A program made the position numbers and the translations under genes. 52,415 bases of DNA. Origin: an uncultured Candidatus Poseidoniales archaeon (GTDB taxonomy: Archaea > Thermoplasmatota > Poseidoniia > Poseidoniales > Poseidoniaceae). Every line of letters begins with the position of its first letter. Positions within the stretch are counted from its first letter, which is position 1. The stretch spans positions 1 to 52,415 of the forward strand of contig CAJJCQ010000010.1 of assembly GCA_905182725.1 (NCBI GenBank), written 5' to 3'. The notes below the pieces were generated by a model that saw nothing but the letters and a program-made list of their open reading frames with translations, searched no databases and was not told the origin of the DNA. Of the stretch, positions 8,412 through 48,668 are shown in pieces.

Positions 8412-8462
8412 GTTTGTGGTTCTATGGCCAAAGCCCTTGAGCCTTTTCCAAGAGCCGCATCG

Positions 8463-8495
8463 CTCTTATCCCATCCCTACGGGATGAGGAAAGAG
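8463..8495. other. Strong stem-loop in divergent intergenic region
   Basis: A 33-base hairpin. CTCTT pairs with AAGAG at the outside, TCC with GGA in the middle around small bulges, and CATCCC with GGGATG at the top around a TAC loop. It lies between rpiA and the 1686-residue surface protein gene. It may be part of a structured 5' leader, an RNA gene or a terminator. Direction is unknown. Confidence 0.6.
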
Positions 8496-8512
8496 TGGCC
8501 GAAGACTTTTGA

Positions 8513-8530
8513 CCTACGGGGGGCCGTAGG
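8513..8530 (+). promoter_or_regulatory. Perfect 7-bp hairpin touching the ribosome-binding site of the giant surface protein
   Basis: CCTACGG (8513-8519), a GGGG loop and CCGTAGG (8524-8530). The 3' arm overlaps AGGGTG at 8528-8533, the only ribosome-binding-like sequence before ATG 8538. Pairing would hide part of it. A role in translation control is inference. Confidence 0.5.
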
Positions 8531-8537
8531 GTGTACT

Positions 8538-11500
8538 ATGGGGTCAGTGCGAGCCATGCCACTTCGTTGCTTTGCTGTAGTGACTTTGTTCCTCCTGTCA
8601 ACACTTTTACAGGGCTATACCGTACTTCCTGAAGAAGCACTCCTCGATTCGGATGCTTCAATGGAAACATCAACGCCATTGGGTCAATCACATTTACTTT
8701 CGATTGGTTCTTTCCCTGATGGAGCAAATACAAACACTCGTCTTGGTGTCCTTGACAGTGCAGCAATTCAATCCCTCGACCTCAATATTGAATCCGCTCG
8801 ACTTCCATCCTCAACCGGATACTCACTCACTGAGTCCCTTGATTTTTCGAGAAATACAGTGTATGATGGCGTTGATGTCAACGGTTCATCACTTACGATT
8901 TTACCACAAGGTTGGGATTGGGACTTTGAAGGCAGCACTCACGGCTGGACACTCGGTTCTCCTTCTTGGCTTTGGGGCTTTGACAGTGGCCTTGGTCAAG
9001 CAAATGGTGTGAGCAGTGGTTCAAAAGCCATCTACACCTACAACGGAAACTATCCAAATTATATGAGTTCCACAATTTGGGCCACATCTCCAGTCATGAA
9101 CTGTTCTTCATGCTCAGGTGCTTGGGAATTGAATTTCATGAAGCGACTTGGTATTGAAAGCTCAAGTTACGACCATGCGTATGTTGCAGTCAAAGGAACA
9201 AATGGACAATGGGCGACCGTGTATTCCTCAGGCTATGTTCAAGATTCAAGTTTTTCTCAACAAACCATTAGCATCTCGAACTATGTCACCAATAACCCGT
9301 CTTTCCAGGTTCGTTTCGGTATTGGAACGACCGATGGTTCAGTTACCTATACGGGTTGGAATATTGATGATGTTTCTGTTATGCCAAGTGGCTCTGGGGT
9401 CTCTTCTGGTGAAGGCAATTGGACCTCAGCACCTTTCAGTCCTGCCATGCTTGGACAAGGTGAAATGCGAACATTTGGTTATCTTCATCTCGATGCTGAA
9501 GTTCCTTCAGGTGAGATTCTTGAATGGCGGCTACTCGATGCTTCGACAAGTCAACCAGTTCCTGGTTTCGAACACTCAGTCTCCAAATCAGTTGACCTTG
9601 GGATGATCGATTGGGAAACCTATCCAAGTGTCCGTCTCAATATTCACCTGAAGAGTCAGTCCGGTGGTGTTCCGGTCATTCATGGTATGCACTTCGAAGG
9701 AAAAGTCATCGAAGACTTCGGAGAAGACCCAACAGGAATGGGTTGGCAATTACAAAATGTTGGATGGTCCAATGGACAAATTTCCGGCGCTGGAACATTG
9801 TTAACCACTCCATTTAATCTGCGTTCAGGGTTTGCAGGCTTCACCTCGAATTGTTCACTCACTGGGAACGGGGTTATGGAATATTCACTCGACCAAGGAA
9901 CGACTTGGATGACACTCGCAGATGGGACTCAATGGCTTACTTCACCCCACTTCACCGTTCAATTCCGAGCCAAATCAACCGGCGGAAGTTGGACGCTCAA
10001 TACATTCGATGTGGAAATGATTCGTACCAGTGTAGCAGATGGACTGCGTATCGATATTGGCATGGATGGTGTCAGTGATTGGTCACTCGAAGGAGACGGC
10101 ATTGGCCGTCTGGGCATCCAAGACCAATTGAAGGACGGTTCTATGTGGCAATCACACGCCTCGACGCCTTCGAACGCTGCAGTATTTTCAGTTCTTCTTC
10201 CAGCAGCAGGTGTTGATGCGTTTGAATTCGGGGTTGCTTCACCTCTTCAACAAATGATCTCACCTTTTGTTACAATGTCGATTAATGGTCAAGATTTCAT
10301 GTCATCTTCATTGTCCAACCTTCAAGACCTTCAAGTGATTCAACTTTCTTCAAGCGAACTTTTATCGATGAACAGTGCCTTATCTCAAGCATCTGCTTCA
10401 GAGGGTGTTGAAGGTCTTCCAATGGTTGAAGTGACGCTTCGAATTGGTTCATCTTCCACATCGACAGAAGTTTTGTTCGGTGGACTCTTAGCACCATATG
10501 ATGCCTCCTTTGCCTTACAATTCACTTCGACTGATGCGGTGGTTATTGCTCTCAATGCAGCTTTGCAATCCATTACACCGGTGGGTGGGACAAAGGAAGT
10601 ACCTCTGCCGATTCGTATGACTTCCTCGGGTGCGGTTCGAATGACAGTTGTTCAACAAACAACACAAAGTTCGATTGAACCCGTTTCAATCGTTGTCTCA
10701 AATGTAACCGACACATTCACTCCTTCTACTGACTGGATTGAAGTCACCAGCACTTTTGATTTCTCGAATTTAGGCGTTAATGATGCCGAAGCACATGTCA
10801 AATCAAACAGTTGGTCTGTAGAACTCCACCTTCAAGGTCAGACTGCTGAATCTCATACCCGCTGTCAAATGCTTTCCCTCCCTCTCTTTGGTTCCGCAGT
10901 TAACGGTTGCCTGAATCAAGCGACTCCAATGATCTGGATGAAAGATGGAGCAAATGGCGAAATACGTATGCTTGGAAGCGGTCCTTTCTTACAAGTCGAC
11001 CATCGATTCAAATTTACCGAACAATGGGATGATGAAGAATCTCTTTCTGTTTCAGTGAACCTCATTGCTCCATCGGGACCGATGCTTCCCATAAGTATGA
11101 ACTTCGGACTTGGATCCTCTCATGGTGTCGAAAATGATGTTTCGGTAAAGAATTGGGGAATTGTCAATCAAAACCTCGTCGAGTCCATGCTTTCAGCCCC
11201 CTATCTTCAGCCAGGGGATGCCGTCCAAGTCGAAATCGAACTTGGATTTGAAAATGTACCTTTGAGTTCATCACCTCGTTCGGGTTCAACTTTAGTTCGA
11301 TTCTTGGTTGATGGGGCAGAAGTACAGTCTTCTTCGATTATTACCAATGGCATCGTCTCCTTCCCTTGGACCGTTCCAATCAACAAAGAAAGTGTTACAC
11401 TGAGCATTGATGTTTCACCGTTAAACGGTCAAAGTATTGTCTATGATGTTCCGAGCAGTGTGGTCTTTGGATTTGATACAGTGTCTCCTGAATTACTCGA

Positions 11501-13598
11501 GACAAGTGTTTCTGAATTCGACCATGTTGATGCCATGCCAATGACGAGCATCGACTTCGTTGTCGCAGACAGACCAGTTTTGCCTTCACATGCGAAAGTA
11601 CACCTCTGGCGTTCTTGGATGGATGATAGCAATCTCGATGGTACTATGCAAACGACGGAAGTACAGGCACATCTGTTACAACTCCCCGCTAATTTGAATT
11701 CGATTCAGGGCACTTATTCTTTGGAATTAGATACTTCAAGTGCTTACAGTGGTTCCTTTTTCAGTGGTTGGTTAGAAATTGCAGACCCTGCAGGAAATAT
11801 GATGGGTTCTTCCGGTACATTTGAGGTGCCGTTGTTTAATGTTCAAGTCAATAACGATGGCTCACCTCAACTTGGTTCAGCCCCAGCAAGTTGGAACATT
11901 GGTGACTCAGTGTGGATTCATCCAGGCGAATCGAATCTGTTGCATCTCCCATTGTGGGACTTGAATGGAATCTCTGATATCTCATCAATTCAATTGAACT
12001 TAGCAGGGAATCAAAACGAGCCAGTTCTCATAGAATGGGATGCGGTAACTGAACAATGTACCAGTCCCAATATTTACATTGCTCTTGAATCGTGTATCCT
12101 TATGCCATCGCAGAGCAGTCAGCTGTTTCCTTCAGAAGGTGTACTTGAGGTCAATTTTTCGATTGAATGGGGCTTTGACCCAGATGTTAGCCTCACCCGA
12201 ATTCCAACCGTGTTCATACAAGATTATCTCGGCCAATCAAATACACTTGCAGTCCCAGAACTCAGTTGGAAGTATTCAGGCGAATTAATGGTAGATCCAC
12301 AAACTCTTTCTTATTCGATTCAAGGAGATCTTGTTGATACACTCGGAACATGGGTTCAACCACGTGAAGAAATCGAGGTGACAGGTGAACTCACTTGGTA
12401 CCGTTCATCACGTTCAGTCATTCAACCTCTTGACTTAGAAATCTTGCTTGGTAACAATGAAGCACAAGCCGAATCACTGAATGGTACATTCTTTGGTATC
12501 ATTACAGCGCCATTAGCATCGGGCTCCTATGGAATTCACAGTTCGTTAGGTAACCCTCCAAATGGGGCGATTGACCGTACTCCGACTTCACCTGCAGCCT
12601 GGTTCATCGTCGATGACCAAGTGCCAGGAATCGTAGGTGTGGCCTCACCGACTGATTCGATTGTCCTTTCTGAATCGACTTGGTCTACTCTTCATCTTGA
12701 AGTTCTCATTCTCGAAGAAGATCGTTTGGATGAGGATACATTGCTTCTCCATTGGGCAGTTCACCCCGAAGGTGTTGGCCTTTCAAGTCAATACGTCATC
12801 AATGGCAGTGAAGATCTTTCCGTCATTGGTGGTCGAGCATTTGGTGATGAAATTCCATGTGCTGCGATTTTGAATTTAGATGAATTGCTGACCTCTTCCA
12901 TGCGTAATGACGCACTCGAACTTCGAATTTGGGTTACTGGACAGGACATGGCAGGGCATAAAATCAATTCAGTGTTCAACGATATTGATGCTCCACTTTC
13001 TGTTTGGGTTCTTGAACAACGAATTGCAGAATATTCTTTCAGCATACCGGAAATGAAACCAAGTGATGATATTGCAGCAGGTGATACAATTCGTCTCGGT
13101 GTTTCGATTACGAATTCCGGCCTAGCCGATGGCGATGCCCAAATCTTTGTCGAATTGGTTGAAAGTAATGGAGCACGTACTCGAATTGATGCACGAGGTA
13201 TCCAAATTGAAGCTGGTGGGACCTATATCTATTCGAAAGATTGGATTCCTGACAGAGCAGGAACCATGTGGATTGAATATCAAATAATCAACGGCCCTCT
13301 TGCTCAATCTGGAACTGTTTATGTGGATGAACAACGTTCTGAAGGTCTCTTTTCGGGAATCACTTCGGTCAACCCCATACTTTTGGTTGTTATCTTTTTG
13401 TTGACCGTTTCTTTAGTCGGCCTACTCATCTTCGGACTGAAATCCCCTCAATCGAAACAATGGGATCAAAATCAACAACGAGTGGTCGAGAAAGCACCCC
13501 ACTCAAGTCCTCAAAGTAAGCAATCACCTCAACCGGTTTCAGGGCCATATGGTGCTCCAGAGCATGCCGCATCACCCGGTGAAAACCCCTACGAGTGA
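8538..13598 (+). CDS. Giant secreted single-anchor surface protein with MAM/choice-of-anchor-like domain
   Basis: About 1686 residues. A short basic N-terminus and a hydrophobic run (CFAVVTLFLLSTLL) form a signal peptide. A cysteine-containing jelly-roll-like domain follows (from DFEGSTHGW to GWNIDDVSV), as in MAM or choice-of-anchor J modules. After that comes a long series of beta-rich Ser/Thr-rich segments without enzyme motifs. Near the C-terminus there is a CARDB/BatB-like Ig-fold (IRLGVSITNSGLADGDAQIF), one membrane helix (NPILLVVIFLLTVSLVGLLIF), and a Pro/Gln/Ser-rich tail of about 55 residues, presumably cytoplasmic. The open frame extends to ATG 8424, but the signal peptide makes 8538 (or 8556) the likely start. 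It is probably an adhesion, S-layer-associated or polymer-binding protein. No catalytic site is recognised. Confidence 0.8.
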   Translation: MGSVRAMPLRCFAVVTLFLLSTLLQGYTVLPEEALLDSDASMETSTPLGQSHLLSIGSFPDGANTNTRLGVLDSAAIQSLDLNIESARLPSSTGYSLTESLDFSRNTVYDGVDVNGSSLTILPQGWDWDFEGSTHGWTLGSPSWLWGFDSGLGQANGVSSGSKAIYTYNGNYPNYMSSTIWATSPVMNCSSCSGAWELNFMKRLGIESSSYDHAYVAVKGTNGQWATVYSSGYVQDSSFSQQTISISNYVTNNPSFQVRFGIGTTDGSVTYTGWNIDDVSVMPSGSGVSSGEGNWTSAPFSPAMLGQGEMRTFGYLHLDAEVPSGEILEWRLLDASTSQPVPGFEHSVSKSVDLGMIDWETYPSVRLNIHLKSQSGGVPVIHGMHFEGKVIEDFGEDPTGMGWQLQNVGWSNGQISGAGTLLTTPFNLRSGFAGFTSNCSLTGNGVMEYSLDQGTTWMTLADGTQWLTSPHFTVQFRAKSTGGSWTLNTFDVEMIRTSVADGLRIDIGMDGVSDWSLEGDGIGRLGIQDQLKDGSMWQSHASTPSNAAVFSVLLPAAGVDAFEFGVASPLQQMISPFVTMSINGQDFMSSSLSNLQDLQVIQLSSSELLSMNSALSQASASEGVEGLPMVEVTLRIGSSSTSTEVLFGGLLAPYDASFALQFTSTDAVVIALNAALQSITPVGGTKEVPLPIRMTSSGAVRMTVVQQTTQSSIEPVSIVVSNVTDTFTPSTDWIEVTSTFDFSNLGVNDAEAHVKSNSWSVELHLQGQTAESHTRCQMLSLPLFGSAVNGCLNQATPMIWMKDGANGEIRMLGSGPFLQVDHRFKFTEQWDDEESLSVSVNLIAPSGPMLPISMNFGLGSSHGVENDVSVKNWGIVNQNLVESMLSAPYLQPGDAVQVEIELGFENVPLSSSPRSGSTLVRFLVDGAEVQSSSIITNGIVSFPWTVPINKESVTLSIDVSPLNGQSIVYDVPSSVVFGFDTVSPELLETSVSEFDHVDAMPMTSIDFVVADRPVLPSHAKVHLWRSWMDDSNLDGTMQTTEVQAHLLQLPANLNSIQGTYSLELDTSSAYSGSFFSGWLEIADPAGNMMGSSGTFEVPLFNVQVNNDGSPQLGSAPASWNIGDSVWIHPGESNLLHLPLWDLNGISDISSIQLNLAGNQNEPVLIEWDAVTEQCTSPNIYIALESCILMPSQSSQLFPSEGVLEVNFSIEWGFDPDVSLTRIPTVFIQDYLGQSNTLAVPELSWKYSGELMVDPQTLSYSIQGDLVDTLGTWVQPREEIEVTGELTWYRSSRSVIQPLDLEILLGNNEAQAESLNGTFFGIITAPLASGSYGIHSSLGNPPNGAIDRTPTSPAAWFIVDDQVPGIVGVASPTDSIVLSESTWSTLHLEVLILEEDRLDEDTLLLHWAVHPEGVGLSSQYVINGSEDLSVIGGRAFGDEIPCAAILNLDELLTSSMRNDALELRIWVTGQDMAGHKINSVFNDIDAPLSVWVLEQRIAEYSFSIPEMKPSDDIAAGDTIRLGVSITNSGLADGDAQIFVELVESNGARTRIDARGIQIEAGGTYIYSKDWIPDRAGTMWIEYQIINGPLAQSGTVYVDEQRSEGLFSGITSVNPILLVVIFLLTVSLVGLLIFGLKSPQSKQWDQNQQRVVEKAPHSSPQSKQSPQPVSGPYGAPEHAASPGENPYE

Positions 13599-13962: not shown

Positions 13963-16827
13963 CTAATCTTCAAGAAGTACCGCTTCAAGTGGCTTCATCG
14001 AGAGAGACGATGCTAACGCAATACCATCGCCATAATCGGCCCATGATTCATCACCTCGAATCATGGCACGTATCGTATGTTCTGCTGTAATAATGGCAGG
14101 AAGTAAGAATGCACTCGTGATGAAAGCACAGAAGATCAAGAGACACATAATCATGAAGAAGTTCTCCAAACCAGGGAAGGCAGCGATAAATCCTGCAGCA
14201 ATACCACAGACAGTGGTTGCTGTGGTCTCAAAAATCGTCTGACCGGTTTCTTCGATTGCATTTGCAATGCCCGTCGGCGTCTCACCTTCTTCCTGAATGC
14301 GATGCATGACGTGGATCGAGTCATCCACTCCGATTCCGAATACTATTGTTCCAATCATCGCAGTAAATATGTTGACATTGACATCACCACTTTTCATCAA
14401 CAATGGTTGCCACAAGATGACAATAGCAACAGGGATCATCGTATAGATACCAAGTCGTGGTGAACGGAATACAATGGAGAGAAGGACTGTGAGGACAAGT
14501 AAAGTGATAATGGTGGTTGAAGTTTGTGCATCGTGAATACCATCGTTAATGTCGAGAGAGACCGGTAAGCCTCCAGTCAATAATGAGGTGCGAGTTTTTC
14601 CGTCAACCGGTGGTTCATTTTCTAACAGGGAATCGATTTCATCTCGTAACTCACCTGCAACATTGAGGTTCATATAGGGCTGAGTTACGTAGACAATGGC
14701 TTTTGTTCCTTGTTCATTCAATAACATCGACTGAACTTCATCAGAGAGTGTATCAAAGACTGCATTGACCATGTCTTTTCTCAAGCCTTGGCGTCCATCT
14801 TGGCCTGTGAGTTCAAGGCTGAGCCAAACATTACATTCGATTGGGTCGTTACTTTCCCAGCAAGGTTCATGCAGTAAATCCCACAGACTCCCTTCATACA
14901 AGGTGACGCCATCAACAAGAGTTATTGTTGCAGGAATTGTTTTCAAAAAGGTGATGATACTGGTGGTATTCGTTTCATCAACTTGATCGATTTTGTACTC
15001 TAAAGCATCGATTGCATCCAGTACTGGAAGGTCACGGATGTTATCGGTTTTATTTTGCTGAGCCTCTATTGTCCGCTCTTCAGCATCAAAAATGAACAGG
15101 GAAGTTTGTCCTCCACTGAATTCTCTTGAATATTTGGCGAGGGTATTCAATGAGGCGATACCATCTGGAGCTTCAGAAGATCCAGTGATCGGTTCATTCA
15201 TTTCATCTAAATTGAGAACACCCCAACTGGTGACGACCATTGCACCGACAAGGATGAACACAAATCCCCGAACCGGCCAAGTGCCGATGTTCTTCCAAAG
15301 TGAAGGATTCGTACGTTTGTTGAAACGGAGCATCCAAGCCAATGTCGGCACCAATATGATACTGAATACAAGTGTCGATAGAATACCAATACAGAGTGTC
15401 ACTCCGACTGAACGTATTGGTGCAATGGTTACGATTTGTGGAGCAATCAATACCGAGAAACCGACGATTGTGGTCAATGCTGATAGGAATACAGCAACAC
15501 CAGTCGAGCGTGTCATTTCAAGGACACATTCACGATAAAATTCTGGGTCCCACAAATCCGGTACTTCTTCGGGAGCTTTTCCTTGACGTCGACGACGTTC
15601 ATTCTCATCATGGGCTTTGTCGATTTCTTTACGCCGGACTTCTTCTATTCGATTCACCATGTGTAAGGCATAGTCAACACCTAACCCTATGAGAATAGGG
15701 AACGTTGCTACGATCATTGGCGTCAAAGTGATGTCCAAAAGAACCGATGAACCAAAGGTTACTGCAAGGGCCATAACAATAGGTGTGCCAGTGATGACTA
15801 CGACCTTGAGTGAGCGATGCAGTAAGGTGATGATGAGAATGGTAAAGAGAACAGAGTAAGGGAGGATTTTGAGTAAATCTTCGTAAATCGCATCTGAAAT
15901 ATCTTCAAGAACTTTGGTCAATCCCGTGACCGTCATTTCAGTATTTTGCATATCCTGTGACCGATTGTCAATCACATCTTGAAAATGTTCATGCAGGTGG
16001 CTGAAATCACGAAACTTTGCTTCGGTTGGGTCATGGTGCATACCAATCAAAATGGCTGCTGTGTCCCAGATTCCATCTCCATCGATATCATTGGTTGTGT
16101 TTCCATCGCCATCACTGTCGACATTGAGATCCATATCATTCGTGTCTTTGAACAGTGCATCAAATCCGCCTTCTGATTCCTCAATGATTCGATCGATTGT
16201 CTCCTGATTCGGAATAGCATATGCCCCTCCACCAGGGATGAGTTCACAATCAAAGTCAAGTGGGATACGGGTGTTGATTCCATTCACACACATCGAAGTG
16301 TTAAATCGACCATCGGCAGAATTGATTTCTTTGATCACTTGGGCGGGAGATATAATCCAAAGCACTCCATCGTCACGTCCCTGGTCATCTTTACTGTAAT
16401 CGATTCCTCGGCCAGTGAAACCAGCGCCATTGGCATTGTCATCATCTCCTTCAACCCAACTCATTTCACGTAAATATGCTTCATTTGTAATATTCAACGT
16501 ACTCGACGTATCGAACGCATTGGGTGTTTGAACATAGATAATGGCAATGTCAGTCGACCATTCTGTTCGAACTTCTTTCAACAATTCAGTCGAAGCCGCA
16601 CCATCGGGGAGAAATATTTCTACATCTCCATCAATTTGTTCTTGGAAAGAGAGTCCTTGTTGTGCAAAAAAGGCTGCAACAATGACCAGTAGTATGACGA
16701 CTGTAGCAGGTGAAGCAAGGATGCTACTGTATGCGCTGTCAACGCGGCGCATTGTCAAATCCTTCGCTTGATTGCGATATGTGGAAAGTTTGTCGAGAAG
16801 ATTCTCTCCCCCGCTCCCCTTCTCCAT
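13963..16827 (-). CDS. RND-superfamily exporter (MMPL/SSD type)
   Basis: A 954-residue protein with the duplicated RND layout: membrane helix 1 near residues 38-60, a large extracytoplasmic loop, a five-helix bundle (about 330-510) with the sterol-sensing-like stretch IGLGVDYALHMVNRI, a sixth to seventh helix break, a second large loop, and a second bundle with FGIGVDDSIHVMHRI. The repeated G-x-G-V-D-(Y/D) motif in helix 4 and 10 carries the proton-relay Asp of RND transporters. The first outer loop holds a DSDGDG...DIDGDGIWDT segment (about residues 231-256) that looks like a thrombospondin type 3/calcium-binding repeat, which is unusual for this family. The exported substrate is unknown; lipids or hydrophobic molecules are usual. 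The start at ATG 16827 has no clear ribosome-binding site. Confidence 0.88.
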   Translation of the reverse strand: MEKGSGGENLLDKLSTYRNQAKDLTMRRVDSAYSSILASPATVVILLVIVAAFFAQQGLSFQEQIDGDVEIFLPDGAASTELLKEVRTEWSTDIAIIYVQTPNAFDTSSTLNITNEAYLREMSWVEGDDDNANGAGFTGRGIDYSKDDQGRDDGVLWIISPAQVIKEINSADGRFNTSMCVNGINTRIPLDFDCELIPGGGAYAIPNQETIDRIIEESEGGFDALFKDTNDMDLNVDSDGDGNTTNDIDGDGIWDTAAILIGMHHDPTEAKFRDFSHLHEHFQDVIDNRSQDMQNTEMTVTGLTKVLEDISDAIYEDLLKILPYSVLFTILIITLLHRSLKVVVITGTPIVMALAVTFGSSVLLDITLTPMIVATFPILIGLGVDYALHMVNRIEEVRRKEIDKAHDENERRRRQGKAPEEVPDLWDPEFYRECVLEMTRSTGVAVFLSALTTIVGFSVLIAPQIVTIAPIRSVGVTLCIGILSTLVFSIILVPTLAWMLRFNKRTNPSLWKNIGTWPVRGFVFILVGAMVVTSWGVLNLDEMNEPITGSSEAPDGIASLNTLAKYSREFSGGQTSLFIFDAEERTIEAQQNKTDNIRDLPVLDAIDALEYKIDQVDETNTTSIITFLKTIPATITLVDGVTLYEGSLWDLLHEPCWESNDPIECNVWLSLELTGQDGRQGLRKDMVNAVFDTLSDEVQSMLLNEQGTKAIVYVTQPYMNLNVAGELRDEIDSLLENEPPVDGKTRTSLLTGGLPVSLDINDGIHDAQTSTTIITLLVLTVLLSIVFRSPRLGIYTMIPVAIVILWQPLLMKSGDVNVNIFTAMIGTIVFGIGVDDSIHVMHRIQEEGETPTGIANAIEETGQTIFETTATTVCGIAAGFIAAFPGLENFFMIMCLLIFCAFITSAFLLPAIITAEHTIRAMIRGDESWADYGDGIALASSLSMKPLEAVLLED

Positions 16828-26320: not shown

Positions 26321-28912
26321 ATGGATACCGAGTCATTGGAAGAACGGATGGCCGGTTGGGCTCCATCGTTCAAACGTCTGGCACCCGTTATCCTTGTCGT
26401 TGTGTTTCTGTTTACTGTGGCACTGAGCGCACATCTAGTCGTCTCACCACCGACGTTTAATACCGACCTCGCTGATTTTGCACCCGACTCAGAATCGAGT
26501 GATGCACATGAACGAATCCATGAACACTTTCCGAATGAAGCAAGGCCACTCTTTGTTCATGTTACTGCGGATAACGGTTCAAACATACTTTCTATAGAAT
26601 CTCTTCAGACGATGAATAACCATCTTGCACACATGCAGAATGAATCTTCTAAGCGTCAAGATGCTGTTGCCGTTTGGACCACAACTCCTGGAATCGTACA
26701 ATTGGCTCTTGATGAAGAGGCAAATGGTACTTCGTTGAACTCCATACATTCATGGGGCGAAATTCTCGACCTTCTGTTTGAAGAGGACACCGTGTGTTCA
26801 CTCTCAGCCGATGACCAACTTCTTTCCGCAGCTCGTTACGCTTCTTCCGCTCTCCTCCACAGTGATTTGAATGTTGATTCAAGTTGTGAATATCTTAAGA
26901 ACGGAACTGGTGATGCAGCTCCTACAGCATCTTCCACTCTCTGGGTGCTTGAAATTGACCCGGATCTTGATGTCGAAAAGCGAAAAGTGATCCAAGACCA
27001 ATTCCGAATGGAATTTGCCAAACTTTCAGAATCTTCTGATTTGAATTACGGTGTGGCATCTCTTGACCTTATCTCCTATGATATTGACCAAGGTACTTTT
27101 GATAACCTGGCCTTGTTAGTTATCCTCGCTTTATTGGTCGTCATCATACTTCTGGCCATTGCCTTCCGGTCGATTAACGATGTCGCCTTCCCGCTGATTG
27201 GACTCTCTTTTGCTTTGATTTGGACGTACGGTGTTTTAAATTTACTTGGCATCCAATTTACAGCTCTCGAAGTTGCAGTTGCACCATTGGTACTTGGACT
27301 TGGTATTGATTATGCAATCCATTTGCAACGTGCCTTCTCGGCGATTCGTAAAGAACAAGAAGACCCCGCTGAAGCGTGGTTGCGTGCTTGTGCTCGACTT
27401 TCGATCCCACTCTCTTTAGCAGTTGTAACAACCGTAGCAGCCTTTTTGGCGAACGTCATCTCACCCTTGCCACCGTTAGCAACATTTGGGTATGCTCTTG
27501 CATTTGGTGTTCTCTGCGCATTTGTTTCTTCGACTGTTGTTGTCGGCGCCTTGCATGTCGTCCGCAAAAAGGCCTTGAATGTGCAACAGAGTCAAGCCAT
27601 CACCATGCCTCGTCTTGTTGGAAGTATAGTTGCCGTTCAACAAAAGCAGCAAGTTACAGTCATTCTGGTGACCATTCTGATTTCAGGTATCTCCATTTTT
27701 GGTGCAGCGTCGCTTGAAACAGATTTTGACCTCGCAGACTTTGTCGACCCAGATATGGAGATTATGCAAGTCCGAGAGGATATCGCAACAAGTTACGATA
27801 GCGCAGGTTGGAAATTGATTTACATTCTGTTTGAACCACTTGAGCCATCTTCAAGCATACCTGGTGACGGATTAATGCTCGATGAACTCAGAGGTCTACA
27901 CAAGGACTTCGAAGCGAACCATGACGTTGTAGGGACTGACAATTCACCACCTTCGCCATCATACGAAGGACCATATGTTGTTTTACGAGATGCAATTCTA
28001 AGAGACGTTTCTTTTGGCGACGCGAATAATCTTGAAGTCTATGCAGGTGATGTTTATGTCAAGAATACCTCTCTCGAACTGAATCTAGCTTCAGCTTTTG
28101 ATGAACTTTCTACGAACCAAACTGTTGCGGATGCATTGACGGGTGAAACTTGGGCGCAACGTATTGAACAAACGGTGCACTTAACCGATGGTGAAATCAC
28201 CTATTTCCGAACAGAAGTCCGTGTTGAAGCATCGACTTCAGCAGAGTCTCAACTTGTCATCAGCAAAATTGAAGAACAACTCGGCAGCACTTCTGAACAA
28301 GGTACGCTCCGGTACAATCTCGAGAATCATGCAAACTTGTATGTGACCGGCGATCTTGTCATTTTGCAAACCGTACTCGATGGTTTGAATACTTCTCAAA
28401 TCAAATCAACGGTCATCTCACTCTTCGTCTCAATGGTTGTCCTGTTGGTTTTGACACGGCGTGTTGTTCCAGCCATAGCTGTTCTCTTACCAGTCGCATT
28501 GGCTTCACTTTGGGTCGCTGGTTCAATGTTCATACTCGGTTTGAAGTGGAATGTTTTGACCGTGATGGTGACTGCGCTAACCATTGGTATCGGTATCGAT
28601 TACTCGATTCACATGTGGCGTCGAATTGAAGTTGAACTGGCTCGAAGAGATTCGCATTGGGAGGCTTTGCGTGCAGCACTTTCAACCACAGGTGTGGCTT
28701 TGATTATGAGCGCACTCACCACTGCTTTCGGTTTCCTTGTTCTGATGTTCTCACCTATGCCGGTTATCCAAGACTTCGGATTAATTACTGCCGTCACCGT
28801 CTTCTTTTCGTTATTGCTCGCTTTACTTCTCTTGCCGGTTTTGATCGAACTTTCTGCACGTAATAAGGAAGAAGTTCTTGAGAAAGACGATGGAACAGTT
28901 ATCGAGGGATAA
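26321..28912 (+). CDS. RND-superfamily exporter (MMPL/SSD type), second copy
   Basis: An 863-residue relative of the exporter at 13963-16827, with the same duplicated layout: helix 1 near residues 20-43, a large loop with Cys pairs (TVCSLSADD and SSCEYLK), a five-helix bundle with GLGIDYAIHLQRA, a second loop, and a second bundle with IGIGIDYSIHMWRRI. Both repeats keep the Asp of helices 4 and 10. The N-terminal TFNTDLADFAPDSES matches the start of the first loop in such exporters. The cargo is unknown. It starts at ATG 26321 without a clear ribosome-binding site. The stop codon directly abuts the stop of the convergent DUF2240 gene. Confidence 0.88.
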   Translation: MDTESLEERMAGWAPSFKRLAPVILVVVFLFTVALSAHLVVSPPTFNTDLADFAPDSESSDAHERIHEHFPNEARPLFVHVTADNGSNILSIESLQTMNNHLAHMQNESSKRQDAVAVWTTTPGIVQLALDEEANGTSLNSIHSWGEILDLLFEEDTVCSLSADDQLLSAARYASSALLHSDLNVDSSCEYLKNGTGDAAPTASSTLWVLEIDPDLDVEKRKVIQDQFRMEFAKLSESSDLNYGVASLDLISYDIDQGTFDNLALLVILALLVVIILLAIAFRSINDVAFPLIGLSFALIWTYGVLNLLGIQFTALEVAVAPLVLGLGIDYAIHLQRAFSAIRKEQEDPAEAWLRACARLSIPLSLAVVTTVAAFLANVISPLPPLATFGYALAFGVLCAFVSSTVVVGALHVVRKKALNVQQSQAITMPRLVGSIVAVQQKQQVTVILVTILISGISIFGAASLETDFDLADFVDPDMEIMQVREDIATSYDSAGWKLIYILFEPLEPSSSIPGDGLMLDELRGLHKDFEANHDVVGTDNSPPSPSYEGPYVVLRDAILRDVSFGDANNLEVYAGDVYVKNTSLELNLASAFDELSTNQTVADALTGETWAQRIEQTVHLTDGEITYFRTEVRVEASTSAESQLVISKIEEQLGSTSEQGTLRYNLENHANLYVTGDLVILQTVLDGLNTSQIKSTVISLFVSMVVLLVLTRRVVPAIAVLLPVALASLWVAGSMFILGLKWNVLTVMVTALTIGIGIDYSIHMWRRIEVELARRDSHWEALRAALSTTGVALIMSALTTAFGFLVLMFSPMPVIQDFGLITAVTVFFSLLLALLLLPVLIELSARNKEEVLEKDDGTVIEG

Positions 28913-44948: not shown

Positions 44949-45368
44949 ATGCGCCGCAGAGAACCGTTGGATTTGGACCGAACTTGGCGTCATTCATTAC
45001 CAATGCCAATGCCAAACCGGCCAGTTTGCATCACTTTGGAGGAGGCCGAATCTCAATTAGAGCGCTTACCTGGTGAGCGTCGTATCTTTTTGTGGACTGA
45101 TGCTGAACGTCGCTGTCCACCTGGGTGGGGATTCATTGCAAGTGTTCGCCAAGGTATTCCTCCCGAAGGCATAGAGGCAGAACTGATCGCATGGATGGAA
45201 CAGTATCCTGATGCGTGGTTGGCAGTCGACCTTAGAGACGGCGTTGTACCACCGTCTACCCAAAACTCGTTGGAGATTGTTCTTTCGAAGGTGGACCGTC
45301 CAGTCCTGATCCTTGTAAGTAACTCATCAGATAATGAGAACTGGCCGCAATGGGTCTTGCCTGAATGA
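44949..45368 (+). CDS. Hypothetical protein
   Basis: 139 residues, basic at the N-terminus (MRRREPLDLDRTW) then beta/alpha-like (PVCITLEEAESQLERLP, RRIFLWTDAERRC, AWLAVDLRDGVV, VDRPVLILVSNSS). No motif of a known enzyme is visible. It is divergent from DUF106, and ATG 44949 lacks a clear ribosome-binding site. In-frame Met codons lie at 45003 and 45009. The alternation of hydrophobic strands and charged helices supports real coding. Confidence 0.5.
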   Translation: MRRREPLDLDRTWRHSLPMPMPNRPVCITLEEAESQLERLPGERRIFLWTDAERRCPPGWGFIASVRQGIPPEGIEAELIAWMEQYPDAWLAVDLRDGVVPPSTQNSLEIVLSKVDRPVLILVSNSSDNENWPQWVLPE

Positions 45369-45455: not shown

Positions 45456-48400
45456 TCACGGGAAAGTGAATGAACAAACTGAGCAAGCAGTAGCATCAGC
45501 AGTATTCACTGCCATACAAATTGGACAGTTCTTTTCTGCTGCGTCTTCAGTTGCTTCTGCTTCTTCAACAACTTCTTCAGATTCAGGTTCTTCAACAACC
45601 TCTTCGGTAACTTCTTCAGCCTCAGGTTCTTCTGTAGCCTCTTCGGTAGCTTCTTCAGGTTCAGGTTCTTCAACAGCCTCTTCAGCAACAACTTCTTCTT
45701 CACCAGATGCATCAGCATTCCATGCTTTTGCAGCAGCTTCAAGTTCAGCCTTTTTGAGATAGCCGTTTTCATCCAAATCAAAATTCTCTGCATGAACAAC
45801 AAAGGCATCACGTTCACTGACATCAATGTCAGCAGCAGCCATGACACGGAGGAGGACATCCTCTCTCCATGAGACCTTGGATTCAACTTCTTCCTCAGCC
45901 GGTGCTTCACTGGATTCTTCAACAACTTCTTCTTCAGTCGAGGATGCCATGTCTTCGGTTTCAACTTCATCTCCAAAGTGTACACCGTGGAATCGGTTTC
46001 CTGCTTCACCATCGATGACGCCAGGGCCAACAATTTCAAACGAGACTTCGAGGCGTTCACCCTTTTCGACGATTGGGATGGTCCAAGTGATGTGTGTTCC
46101 ACCTTCACCAGATTTGGTTGCCATTTCACAGTCATCACGCTTGTCGTTGTTTCCACGAATTAACCAATCCTTAATTTCGAACTTTTCAGGTATGATGTCG
46201 CTTAGAATAACGTCTTGCAATGCGGTATCACCATCATTGGAAAAGAGAATCAAGACTTCGTGACGGCCTTTGCCACCAATCTTCTGAGTTGTCTTACCAA
46301 AGGAGAAGTCACGTCGGTTGTGAATCACACTAATTGACGGAGCTACAGTTGTGTCTCGGGTGCAAACAGGTCCATATCGCTCTGCACTGAATTCAGTTCG
46401 AGCAGGAGCAGTAATGTCGGTATTGTCCGGAGAAGGATCTGGAGAAATCAAATCGTATTCAATGGTCATGTTATTTCCAGGCTTGAGACCAACTGGGCCA
46501 CGAGCACCGACAGTAATGGTCAATGTATGACCGTCACCGTCTGGTGAACGGTTTACCTTCTCAAGTGTAATTCCACTGTTGATTTCTGTTTTGATTTGTT
46601 CAGCATCGAGTTCCTTGCCGTTGATCTTAATGGTCATTGCAGAAACATCTGGTGCATCGAAGAGTCCAGGAACATCATCGGTAATACGCATCAAGTTGAT
46701 GTCAGAAGAACCGTTGTTGCTCAATGTTAAGCACGCTGTGACTTTTTGAGATCGGTACGAACGCAATCCAGATGTAGAGTAGACCTTTTCTAAGTTCGCT
46801 TCAACAACTTGGAGCGTCTTTGCTTGAAGGCCTATCGAGCCTTCAGTGCTTCGGCTTGCACGAGGAAGGATGGTGTATGCAAGTTCAGTTGCAAAGTCAG
46901 GCTTCGATTGCGCCATAACAGTGCGCTCTTCACTTTCCCACTTTCCATGAGGCTTGACGTCTTGTCGAACATCGTTAATATCGAAAAGTAAGTCGTCGCT
47001 TCCCTTCATGCGAACTTGGAGTTTCACCAAATCGACTGCGAACGAGGAACGGTTCTCAAACGTAGTTCGGCAGAGCCAATTGTCTGGGCGTTCATCTTCA
47101 CGAACACGCATGTAAGAGAATCCACGGCAGAAAGCATCGAGTTCTCTGAAGTTCAAGTTTGAAAGCGTTGAATTCGAAGTGTATGTCGCAGATGCAACAC
47201 CAGCATTGATGGATTTTGTTCCAGATACAACGATGGTTCCTTCGATACTGAGGACTTGCTTTTCACCAGCAGAAAGTGTGCCGACATCCCAAGTGAGTGT
47301 GTTTTCATCGAGTGTTGCTGCACCAATGCTTGCAAAAGATAGTTCTTTTGGAAGTGGACGAGAAACAACAACGTTGTTAATGGCCACTGTGGCTGTATTT
47401 TCAACTTCAATTTCCAAAGCAATTGGGCCACCTTCTTCGCCGGAGGCGACCGAAAGGGAATGTTCCTGTGGACGGGCCGGATTGGTATCGAGGCGTTCAC
47501 GTAGAACGAGCATTCTCTTGCCATTGACCTTGTATTTCATGCTGTAGTTTGCACCTGCTTCCAATTCATCGACAGAGACATTATCTCCACCAATGTCGGT
47601 AGCATCTGCATTATCGAGCATGACATCAATATCATAAATCCGGTCTTCTGCAGACGGATTATTCACCTTGAGCGTACCTTTGACGGTCTGCTTGATGATT
47701 TCTCCTTCTGCACTTAAGGTGGCTTTTTCAACTTCATGAAGTGTTCCTTCAAGTTTATCTCCGAGTACTTCGTCAACTTCAGCGCTGGTTCGAATAATTG
47801 CGCCAGCTTGCTCACCCATGAGGTTGTCAGGAGCCCCAAGGACTGGGTCTGCAGCAAGTGAGGTCGGTAAGAGGGGGATTCCCTTCGGTGCTTCAGGAGG
47901 TGCTGGAGATCCGAGGAGTGCTGCACTGTCTGCCATCATTGAAGGTTCAGCAGGTGCTTCGGCTTCCATTTCTGGCATTGGTGGCATTGGAGGCAAACCC
48001 GGTGGTGCAGGTGCATCCATAGGAGGCATTGGAGGTGCAGGAGCGCCAAGAAGTGCCGCACTGTCTGCCATCATTGAAGGTTCAGCAGGTGCTTCTGCTT
48101 CCATTCCTGGCATTGGTGGCATTGGAGGCATACTCGGTAGTGCAGGTGCATCCATAGGAGGCATTGGAGGTGCAGGAGCGCCAAGAAGTGCCGCACTGTC
48201 TGCCATCATTGAAGGTTCAGCAGGTGCTTCTGCTTCCATTTCTGGCATTGGAGGCATTGGTGGCATTGCAGGCATACCCGGTGGTGCAGGAGGTGCATCC
48301 ATTAGAGGTGCACCCATTTCTGGCATTGGTGGCATTGCAGGCATACCCGGTGGTGCAGGTGGTGCATCCATAGGAGGCATTGGCGGAGCGCCCATCTCAG

Positions 48401-48668
48401 GCATTGGAGGCATTGCAGGCATACCCGGAGGTGCCGGAGGTGCATCCATTGGAGGCATTGGTGGAGCGCCCATCTCAGGCATTGGTGGCATTGCAGGCAT
48501 ACCCGGTGGTGCAGGTGGAGCATCCATTGGAGGCATTGCAGGCATACCCGGTGGTGCAGGTGGAGCATCCATTGGAGGCATTGGTGGAGCGGCCATACCA
48601 GGCGGTGCAGGTGGCATTGGCGGCATAGGTGGCAATCCTGGTGGCATAGGTGGTTTTTCTTCGCTCAT
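45456..48668 (-). CDS. Proline/methionine-repeat protein with DUF11-like domains, EF-hand and C-terminal zinc ribbon
   Basis: 1070 residues, no signal peptide, no membrane helix. Residues from about 1 to 260 are Pro/Met/Ala-rich tandem repeats (PPMPPMDAPPAPPGMPAMPP units, then three EAPAEPSMMADSAALLG units). The middle (about 290-880) has several beta-sandwich repeats resembling DUF11 (LEIEVENTATVAINNVVV, LTLSNNGSSDINLMRITDD, LILFSNDGDTALQDVILSD). Near residue 960 an EF-hand-like loop, DLDENGYLKKAEL, is preceded by a helix. Then come acidic Glu/Val repeats and a zinc ribbon (CPICMAVNTADATACSVC) at the very end. Start ATG 48668 has GGAGGA seven bases upstream. The function is unknown. Lack of an export signal makes it a cytoplasmic scaffold candidate. 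Confidence 0.8.
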   Translation of the reverse strand: MSEEKPPMPPGLPPMPPMPPAPPGMAAPPMPPMDAPPAPPGMPAMPPMDAPPAPPGMPAMPPMPEMGAPPMPPMDAPPAPPGMPAMPPMPEMGAPPMPPMDAPPAPPGMPAMPPMPEMGAPLMDAPPAPPGMPAMPPMPPMPEMEAEAPAEPSMMADSAALLGAPAPPMPPMDAPALPSMPPMPPMPGMEAEAPAEPSMMADSAALLGAPAPPMPPMDAPAPPGLPPMPPMPEMEAEAPAEPSMMADSAALLGSPAPPEAPKGIPLLPTSLAADPVLGAPDNLMGEQAGAIIRTSAEVDEVLGDKLEGTLHEVEKATLSAEGEIIKQTVKGTLKVNNPSAEDRIYDIDVMLDNADATDIGGDNVSVDELEAGANYSMKYKVNGKRMLVLRERLDTNPARPQEHSLSVASGEEGGPIALEIEVENTATVAINNVVVSRPLPKELSFASIGAATLDENTLTWDVGTLSAGEKQVLSIEGTIVVSGTKSINAGVASATYTSNSTLSNLNFRELDAFCRGFSYMRVREDERPDNWLCRTTFENRSSFAVDLVKLQVRMKGSDDLLFDINDVRQDVKPHGKWESEERTVMAQSKPDFATELAYTILPRASRSTEGSIGLQAKTLQVVEANLEKVYSTSGLRSYRSQKVTACLTLSNNGSSDINLMRITDDVPGLFDAPDVSAMTIKINGKELDAEQIKTEINSGITLEKVNRSPDGDGHTLTITVGARGPVGLKPGNNMTIEYDLISPDPSPDNTDITAPARTEFSAERYGPVCTRDTTVAPSISVIHNRRDFSFGKTTQKIGGKGRHEVLILFSNDGDTALQDVILSDIIPEKFEIKDWLIRGNNDKRDDCEMATKSGEGGTHITWTIPIVEKGERLEVSFEIVGPGVIDGEAGNRFHGVHFGDEVETEDMASSTEEEVVEESSEAPAEEEVESKVSWREDVLLRVMAAADIDVSERDAFVVHAENFDLDENGYLKKAELEAAAKAWNADASGEEEVVAEEAVEEPEPEEATEEATEEPEAEEVTEEVVEEPESEEVVEEAEATEDAAEKNCPICMAVNTADATACSVCSFTFP
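45560..45700 (-). repeat. Acidic Glu/Val repeat inside the repeat protein gene
   Basis: About 140 bases encode repeated E-E-(V/A)-(T/V)-E-E-x-x-E-E-P units just before the zinc ribbon. The DNA shows the matching TTCTTCAGC-type triplet bias on the plus strand. In-frame, so growth or loss of units would not break the gene. Confidence 0.65.
47910..48260 (-). repeat. 135-bp tandem repeats (about three copies) in the repeat protein gene
   Basis: The identical stretch TGCCATCATTGAAGG begins at 47931, 48066 and 48201, giving an exact period of 135 bases (45 codons). The repeats encode EAPAEPSMMADSAALLG followed by Pro/Met-rich linkers. Confidence 0.85.
48263..48600 (-). repeat. Variable tandem repeats (45/69/78 bases) encoding Pro/Met units
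   Basis: The stretch GCATTGCAGGCATACCCGG begins at 48263, 48332, 48410, 48488 and 48533, with spacings of 69, 78, 78 and 45 bases, all multiples of three. Copies differ in length by whole codons, which suggests in-frame slippage or recombination. Confidence 0.8.

Follow-up and report, generated by a model that had tools for sequence, protein, structure and literature searches.

What kind of protein joins Pro/Met-rich tandem repeats, beta-sandwiches, an EF-hand, acidic repeats and a zinc ribbon in a single chain, and what might it do in a marine archaeon? The question is raised by a gene of a Candidatus Poseidoniales archaeon (Marine Group II), located in a stretch of 52,415 nucleotides that we call the window. 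A sequence-only reading had placed its open reading frame at 45456-48668 and described the product as a cytoplasmic-looking, possibly scaffolding protein. Strand and coordinates were checked and the position is correct: the open reading frame call and single-copy orthologues define a whole gene of 1070 amino acids at 45456..48668 on the (-) strand. The conserved start of the protein, MSEEKPP, lies at 48668, and the frame stays open upstream to 48794. No paralogue was found in the same genome. Elsewhere, the window encodes a 1724-aa protein without any Pfam match (8424-13598, + strand) and two MMPL/Patched-like transporters (13963-16827 and 26321-28912).

The DUF11 subdomain of this protein is of a type typical of exported proteins, which would fit a surface or matrix protein, like other DUF11 proteins, that leaves the cell by non-classical export. 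Yet neither the window protein nor any of 137 distinct homologue sequences has a signal peptide or transmembrane segment, and no anchor was seen in them; the highest 19-residue Kyte-Doolittle mean across the 137 is 1.51. Further, homologues begin with acidic MSEE or MTD, the zinc ribbon is of the cytosol type, and one genus carries a SAP domain. We regard export as highly improbable. The absence of a signal peptide and membrane helix reported from the window protein holds throughout its homologues, bearing out its cytoplasmic look, and upstream signal peptides, which would have spoken against that view, were looked for in all 137 and found in none.

Structure prediction, which had been suggested as a check, was run with AlphaFold on residues 285-1070 (786 aa) with 57 homologues. 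The model has a mean pLDDT of 85.7, with beta-sandwiches throughout residues 305-881, a core of ~600 aa, and disordered acidic linkers. In a Foldseek search of this model against the PDB, multi-Ig proteins (integrin alpha, PrgB) ranked first, and the best 50 matches included the mu-homology domains (MHDs) of AP-3 mu3A (TMt 0.64), AP-2 mu and COPI delta. Because of these MHDs, and of weak Pfam matches to Adap_comp_sub in 5 of 57 family members, residues 294-529 (47082..47789, - strand) were folded alone. For the resulting 236-aa model (pLDDT 87.4, pTM 0.78), all 50 of the best PDB matches were MHDs, drawn from AP-1, AP-2, AP-3 and AP-4 mu and COPI delta. E-values ranged from 5.6e-8 to 4e-6, TM-scores were mostly 0.55-0.69 (by query length), and the alignments, of 224-267 columns, span the entire domain. 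Judging from these models, residues ~300-525 very probably adopt a two-subdomain MHD-like fold, the best-matching part being ~306-524. A library of viral structures held no MHD-like match; the best was a giant-virus DUF11 protein at TMq 0.35. Some three further beta-sandwich domains are modelled downstream (residues ~530-881; 46026..47081, - strand; AlphaFold/DSSP). A second MHD in residues 530-764 was considered and rejected, as hhalign found no MHD similarity in the downstream sandwiches.

Sequence evidence for kinship with MHDs is real but modest. We aligned 79 archaeal rows by hhalign with seven MHDs: mu1, mu2, mu3, mu4, bovine delta-COP, part of yeast delta-COP, and an algal mu found on a contaminating contig (L187). 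Apart from the algal mu, the MHD sequences are those of the PDB, with mu1 and mu2 taken from PDB rows and mu3, mu4 and delta-COP checked against PDB rows. The match reached a probability of 90%, a score of 49.3 and a P of 1.7e-6, which applies to one comparison and rises to ~0.04 after scaling to the ~25,000 families of Pfam. The two profiles run collinear over 203 columns (15-223 of the archaeal profile, 16-246 of the MHD profile). By comparison, 120 column shuffles scored at most 24.0 and the reversed profile 13.5. An earlier alignment against three MHDs only had given P values of 0.012-0.16. Subdomain A alone gave a P of 0.0033, with none of 150 shuffles scoring as high, and a block of the form E-x9-G-x8-G is shared by the 7 MHDs and by 77 of the 79 rows from archaea. 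Over nearly its whole length, the Pfam model PF00928 can be aligned to two members of the family (G032, E 4.7e-4; G037, E 0.016), and the best family member scores 18.8 bits, below the curated cut-off of 31.6. The weight of the case is carried by the matching register between the sequence alignment and the predicted fold.

How does this relate to DUF11, the domain first recognised in the protein? Pfam places a single DUF11 above cut-off at residues 410-499 (47172..47441, - strand; 49.6 vs 24.6 bits), and the NCBIfam match is TIGR01451. This DUF11 match is half of a larger domain, namely subdomain B of the MHD-like domain. Consequently, the earlier description of DUF11-like beta-sandwiches stands as regards one DUF11 and a beta-sandwich core, and is revised in that the DUF11 forms part of an MHD-like domain. 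An identity as DUF11 only was considered and rejected as incomplete, secreted DUF11 proteins aligning with subdomain B alone. With DUF11 (PF01345)/TIGR01451 repeat proteins the 1070-aa protein shares a subdomain B that passes the cut-off; unlike them, it lacks an export signal and an array of like repeats, and has its one DUF11 inside a composite domain.

The MHD resemblance might nevertheless be convergent or very remote, the outcome of two E-set/DUF11-type sandwiches packing alike. The protein would then be an intracellular DUF11 array with no kinship to coat adaptors, its ends disordered, acting as a structural spacer or scaffold. Across 189 windows of secreted DUF11, CARDB and kelch proteins, scores against the MHD profile reached at most 33.7, the best falling on MHD columns 136-209, which is subdomain B, and a secreted DUF11 array (L189) reached a P of 2.7e-4. 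These matches suggest that a general relationship may exist between DUF11 and MHD subdomain B, and such generic resemblance favours convergence, as do the multi-Ig proteins at the head of the full-length Foldseek search and the sub-threshold PF00928 scores. Against it, subdomain A and the collinearity are specific, and the 50 closest PDB neighbours of the isolated domain are MHDs without exception. Further, when the 236-aa profile was searched against 390 genomes of the phylum, the whole domain was found only in the family of the 1070-aa protein, DUF11 arrays matching only ~102-207. We consider convergence doubtful; homology of the domain to eukaryotic and Asgard MHDs is likely, not proven.

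The protein is thus MHD-like, and is filed neither as an adaptor-complex subunit nor, by the Pfam cut-off, as a member of PF00928. With the MHDs of AP-1/2/3/4 mu and delta-COP it has in common the predicted two-subdomain beta fold over its full length, the register, the E-x9-G-x8-G block and a cytosolic context, whereas its Pro-rich N-terminus, extra sandwiches, EF-hand and zinc ribbon set it apart. The YxxPhi pocket of mu2, formed by F174, D176, K203, W421 and R423, is not kept: in the alignment, D176 is replaced by T, S, I or M, and W421 and R423 fall in gaps. Delta-COP likewise has no YxxPhi pocket. The N-terminus of the 1070-aa protein consists of Pro-rich repeats with no longin domain, and neither Adaptin_N (PF01602) nor Arf (PF00025) was detected in any of 60 relatives, the search controls being positive. 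It is because the pocket, the longin domain, Adaptin_N and Arf are all missing that we do not file the protein as an adaptor-complex subunit.

Other MHD proteins offer a nearer likeness in layout. Muniscins (FCHo, SGIP1) and stonins have a single MHD that follows a long disordered stretch rich in Pro, and by description the 1070-aa protein shares both of these parts. It differs in having no F-BAR, a different order of parts, and a C-terminal EF-hand and zinc ribbon. MHDs were considered eukaryotic before Asgard archaea were reported to have homologues (PMC10307638); Asgard genomes reportedly encode all adaptor-complex domains, including the mu C-terminal domain, in unfused form (Eme et al. 2023, PMC10307638). 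Set alongside these by description, the 1070-aa protein likewise carries an archaeal MHD-like domain unfused to other adaptor domains, from a different phylum. In the open-access journal literature, we found nothing on MHDs in non-Asgard archaea or on this protein. As far as we found, reports of archaeal MHDs have been limited to Asgard.

Ahead of the MHD-like domain lie Pro/Met/Ala-rich tandem repeats with PPG-hydrophobic motifs (residues ~6-268; 47865..48653, - strand), delimited by TRF, composition and motif counts. They are true DNA repeats, with 135-bp and 78-bp arrays at 47896-48632 that match by up to 94%; the 135-bp units occupy 47896-48266 (94% match), and the 78-bp units extend to 48538 (TRF). 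M, L, I, F or V directly follows PPG in 203 of 206 cases in Poseidoniaceae-like proteins and 80 of 81 in other homologues, counts in which repeats inside one protein are non-independent events. The repeat region varies between homologues in length (~130-380 aa) and composition, and none of its repeats were found in other proteins of the genome. In homologue L127, PPGM/PPAPP repeats turn up again inside the C-terminal acidic region, and the repeat module is therefore mobile within the protein. A search for GYF-domain partners returned no matches, but its own controls were also silent. Downstream of the sandwiches are two acidic disordered linkers on the - strand, at residues 903-931 (45876..45962; pLDDT<50) and 986-1046 (45531..45713; TRF, AlphaFold), the latter containing a 39-bp tandem array at 45562-45689 (TRF). 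Both the Pro/Met and the acidic repeats noticed earlier are thus real at the DNA level.

Between the linkers, the loop DLDENGYLKKAE (residues 964-975; 45744..45779, - strand) is a canonical 12-residue EF-hand loop, modelled as helix-loop-helix with pLDDT 94-97, and represents a putative Ca2+ site. Pfam EF-hand models score below cut-off. The loop, of the form DxDxNGYLKKAE, is present in every complete C-terminus more than 62% identical to the window protein. It is degenerate in one group (DDDDNQYLKKAE, L159) and found in a few divergent members (L127, L146); Thalassarchaeaceae otherwise lack it, and in one genus a SAP domain takes its place at the same position (L110/L082; Pfam SAP 5e-9). The loop is mainly a Poseidoniaceae feature, so that the proposed EF-hand is upheld for the window protein and not for the order. 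By contrast, the C-terminal zinc ribbon, CPIC-x10-CSVC (residues 1046-1070; 45459..45533, - strand), is confirmed and kept across the order: Cys 1048, 1051, 1062 and 1065 are invariant in 57 homologues (alignment A3), and the ribbon is modelled at pLDDT 93. The NCBIfam HVO_0416 zinc finger (NF041910) scores a sub-threshold 21.4 bits against a curated cut-off of 80, and has the zinc-ribbon motif alone in common with the protein. Within the window, the ribbon pattern matched only this protein and a neighbouring EMC3/TMCO1-type protein, which also has a C-terminal zinc ribbon (CPEC...CDVC).

Conservation in Marine Group II, the other check suggested, shows that nearly every Poseidoniales genome has a single orthologue in one and the same syntenic position, across Poseidoniaceae and Thalassarchaeaceae. 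A search with the core detected one copy in 51 of 60 relatives. Of 390 genomes sampled from the phylum, 112 matched a profile search at E<=1e-10: 102 belong to the same order and 10 to one small class, represented by a sample of 12 genomes only. Most of the genomes that failed to match are incomplete assemblies. Identity to the window protein is 42-100% in Candidatus Poseidoniaceae/Poseidonia and Candidatus Thalassarchaeaceae genomes, which places the window in Marine Group II, and 38 positions are invariant in an alignment of 22 diverse cores. Of the domain order expected to be conserved, the zinc ribbon and the PPG-hydrophobic repeats are kept across the order, the repeats being absent from one genus (two genomes, L049 and L050), and the EF-hand is not. 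Elsewhere in the phylum, repeat-free relatives occur only in the small class; these are shorter (~660-680 aa), start with MEEE.. and lack both the Pro repeats and the zinc ribbon. A contig labelled as a Rhodobiaceae bacterium (L153) carries the Poseidoniales gene and is mis-binned.

The neighbourhood is conserved across the order. On one side lie a divergent GPN-loop GTPase (PF03029; 48765..49643, + strand), argF (OTCase) and a UbiA-type prenyltransferase; on the other, a codirectional EMC3/TMCO1-type insertase (PF01956; 43917..44888, - strand) is followed by a cmk-like kinase and truB. Because the gene sits in this conserved archaeal synteny in both families, an origin from eukaryotic contamination is rejected. 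A genuine AP-1 mu gene does occur in a MAG of the same family (L187 953-2275, G256:C24; PF00928 E 1e-73), and is a eukaryotic contaminant unrelated to this locus.

NFACT/RqcH proteins act in ribosome quality control, and a gene of this kind occupies the divergent position in six outgroup loci tested (L070, L072, L073, L074, L075 and L076). Taken as neighbours, EMC3 and NFACT hint at a part in quality control or in the biogenesis of membrane proteins. The protein might then be a ribosome or membrane-protein-biogenesis factor working with the EMC3-type insertase in Poseidoniales or with NFACT/RqcH in the outgroup, for example by gathering nascent membrane proteins or tagged chains. The EMC3-cmk-truB order and a gap to EMC3 of 0-66 bp in most Thalassarchaeaceae loci would suit such a factor, as would a zinc ribbon resembling RanBP and eL40, all matches being weak. 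However, the argument is one of neighbourhood; in Poseidoniaceae the gene and EMC3 are often kept apart by an ORF on the opposite strand (44949-45368 in the window), and the f33 outgroup member (L077) has a subtilase in place of NFACT. We find a biogenesis factor unlikely, and a specific role beside the EMC3-type insertase a little more so.

Taken overall, the best explanation is a solitary, soluble, cytosolic and multivalent MHD-like adaptor or scaffold, a view we hold with evenly divided confidence. The scaffold-like reading made from the sequence is supported in this form; the adaptor or scaffold function itself, argued from analogy, falls slightly short of an even chance. In clathrin adaptors and COPI, MHDs serve to read cargo, and those of mu-adaptins, delta-COP and muniscins bind short linear motifs on the cytoplasmic tails of membrane proteins. 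By analogy, the MHD-like domain and the three beta-sandwiches would form a recognition body for short linear motifs, most plausibly on such tails. The disordered PPG-hydrophobic/PPM tail may serve as a many-valent ligand for a partner that binds Pro motifs, the EF-hand could make the C-terminal portion respond to Ca2+ in Poseidoniaceae, and the zinc ribbon might be a small docking knob for protein or RNA. Such a cytosolic adaptor would gather membrane-protein tails or partners.

We further speculate, tentatively and with the balance tilted against it, that the mu-homology superfamily truly includes this family from archaea outside Asgard, and that MHDs were born in archaea when one sandwich, of DUF11 type, was inserted into another. 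On that view, the lone adaptor retained by nearly every Marine Group II archaeon would bind the tails of membrane proteins with neither coats nor Arf, and would represent a stage that preceded vesicle coats. An MHD-like protein present once per genome and almost throughout an abundant order of ocean archaea would broaden the range of MHDs in archaea, would point to DUF11 as the origin of the MHD fold, and would offer a concrete protein for testing how an MHD might act without a vesicle coat.
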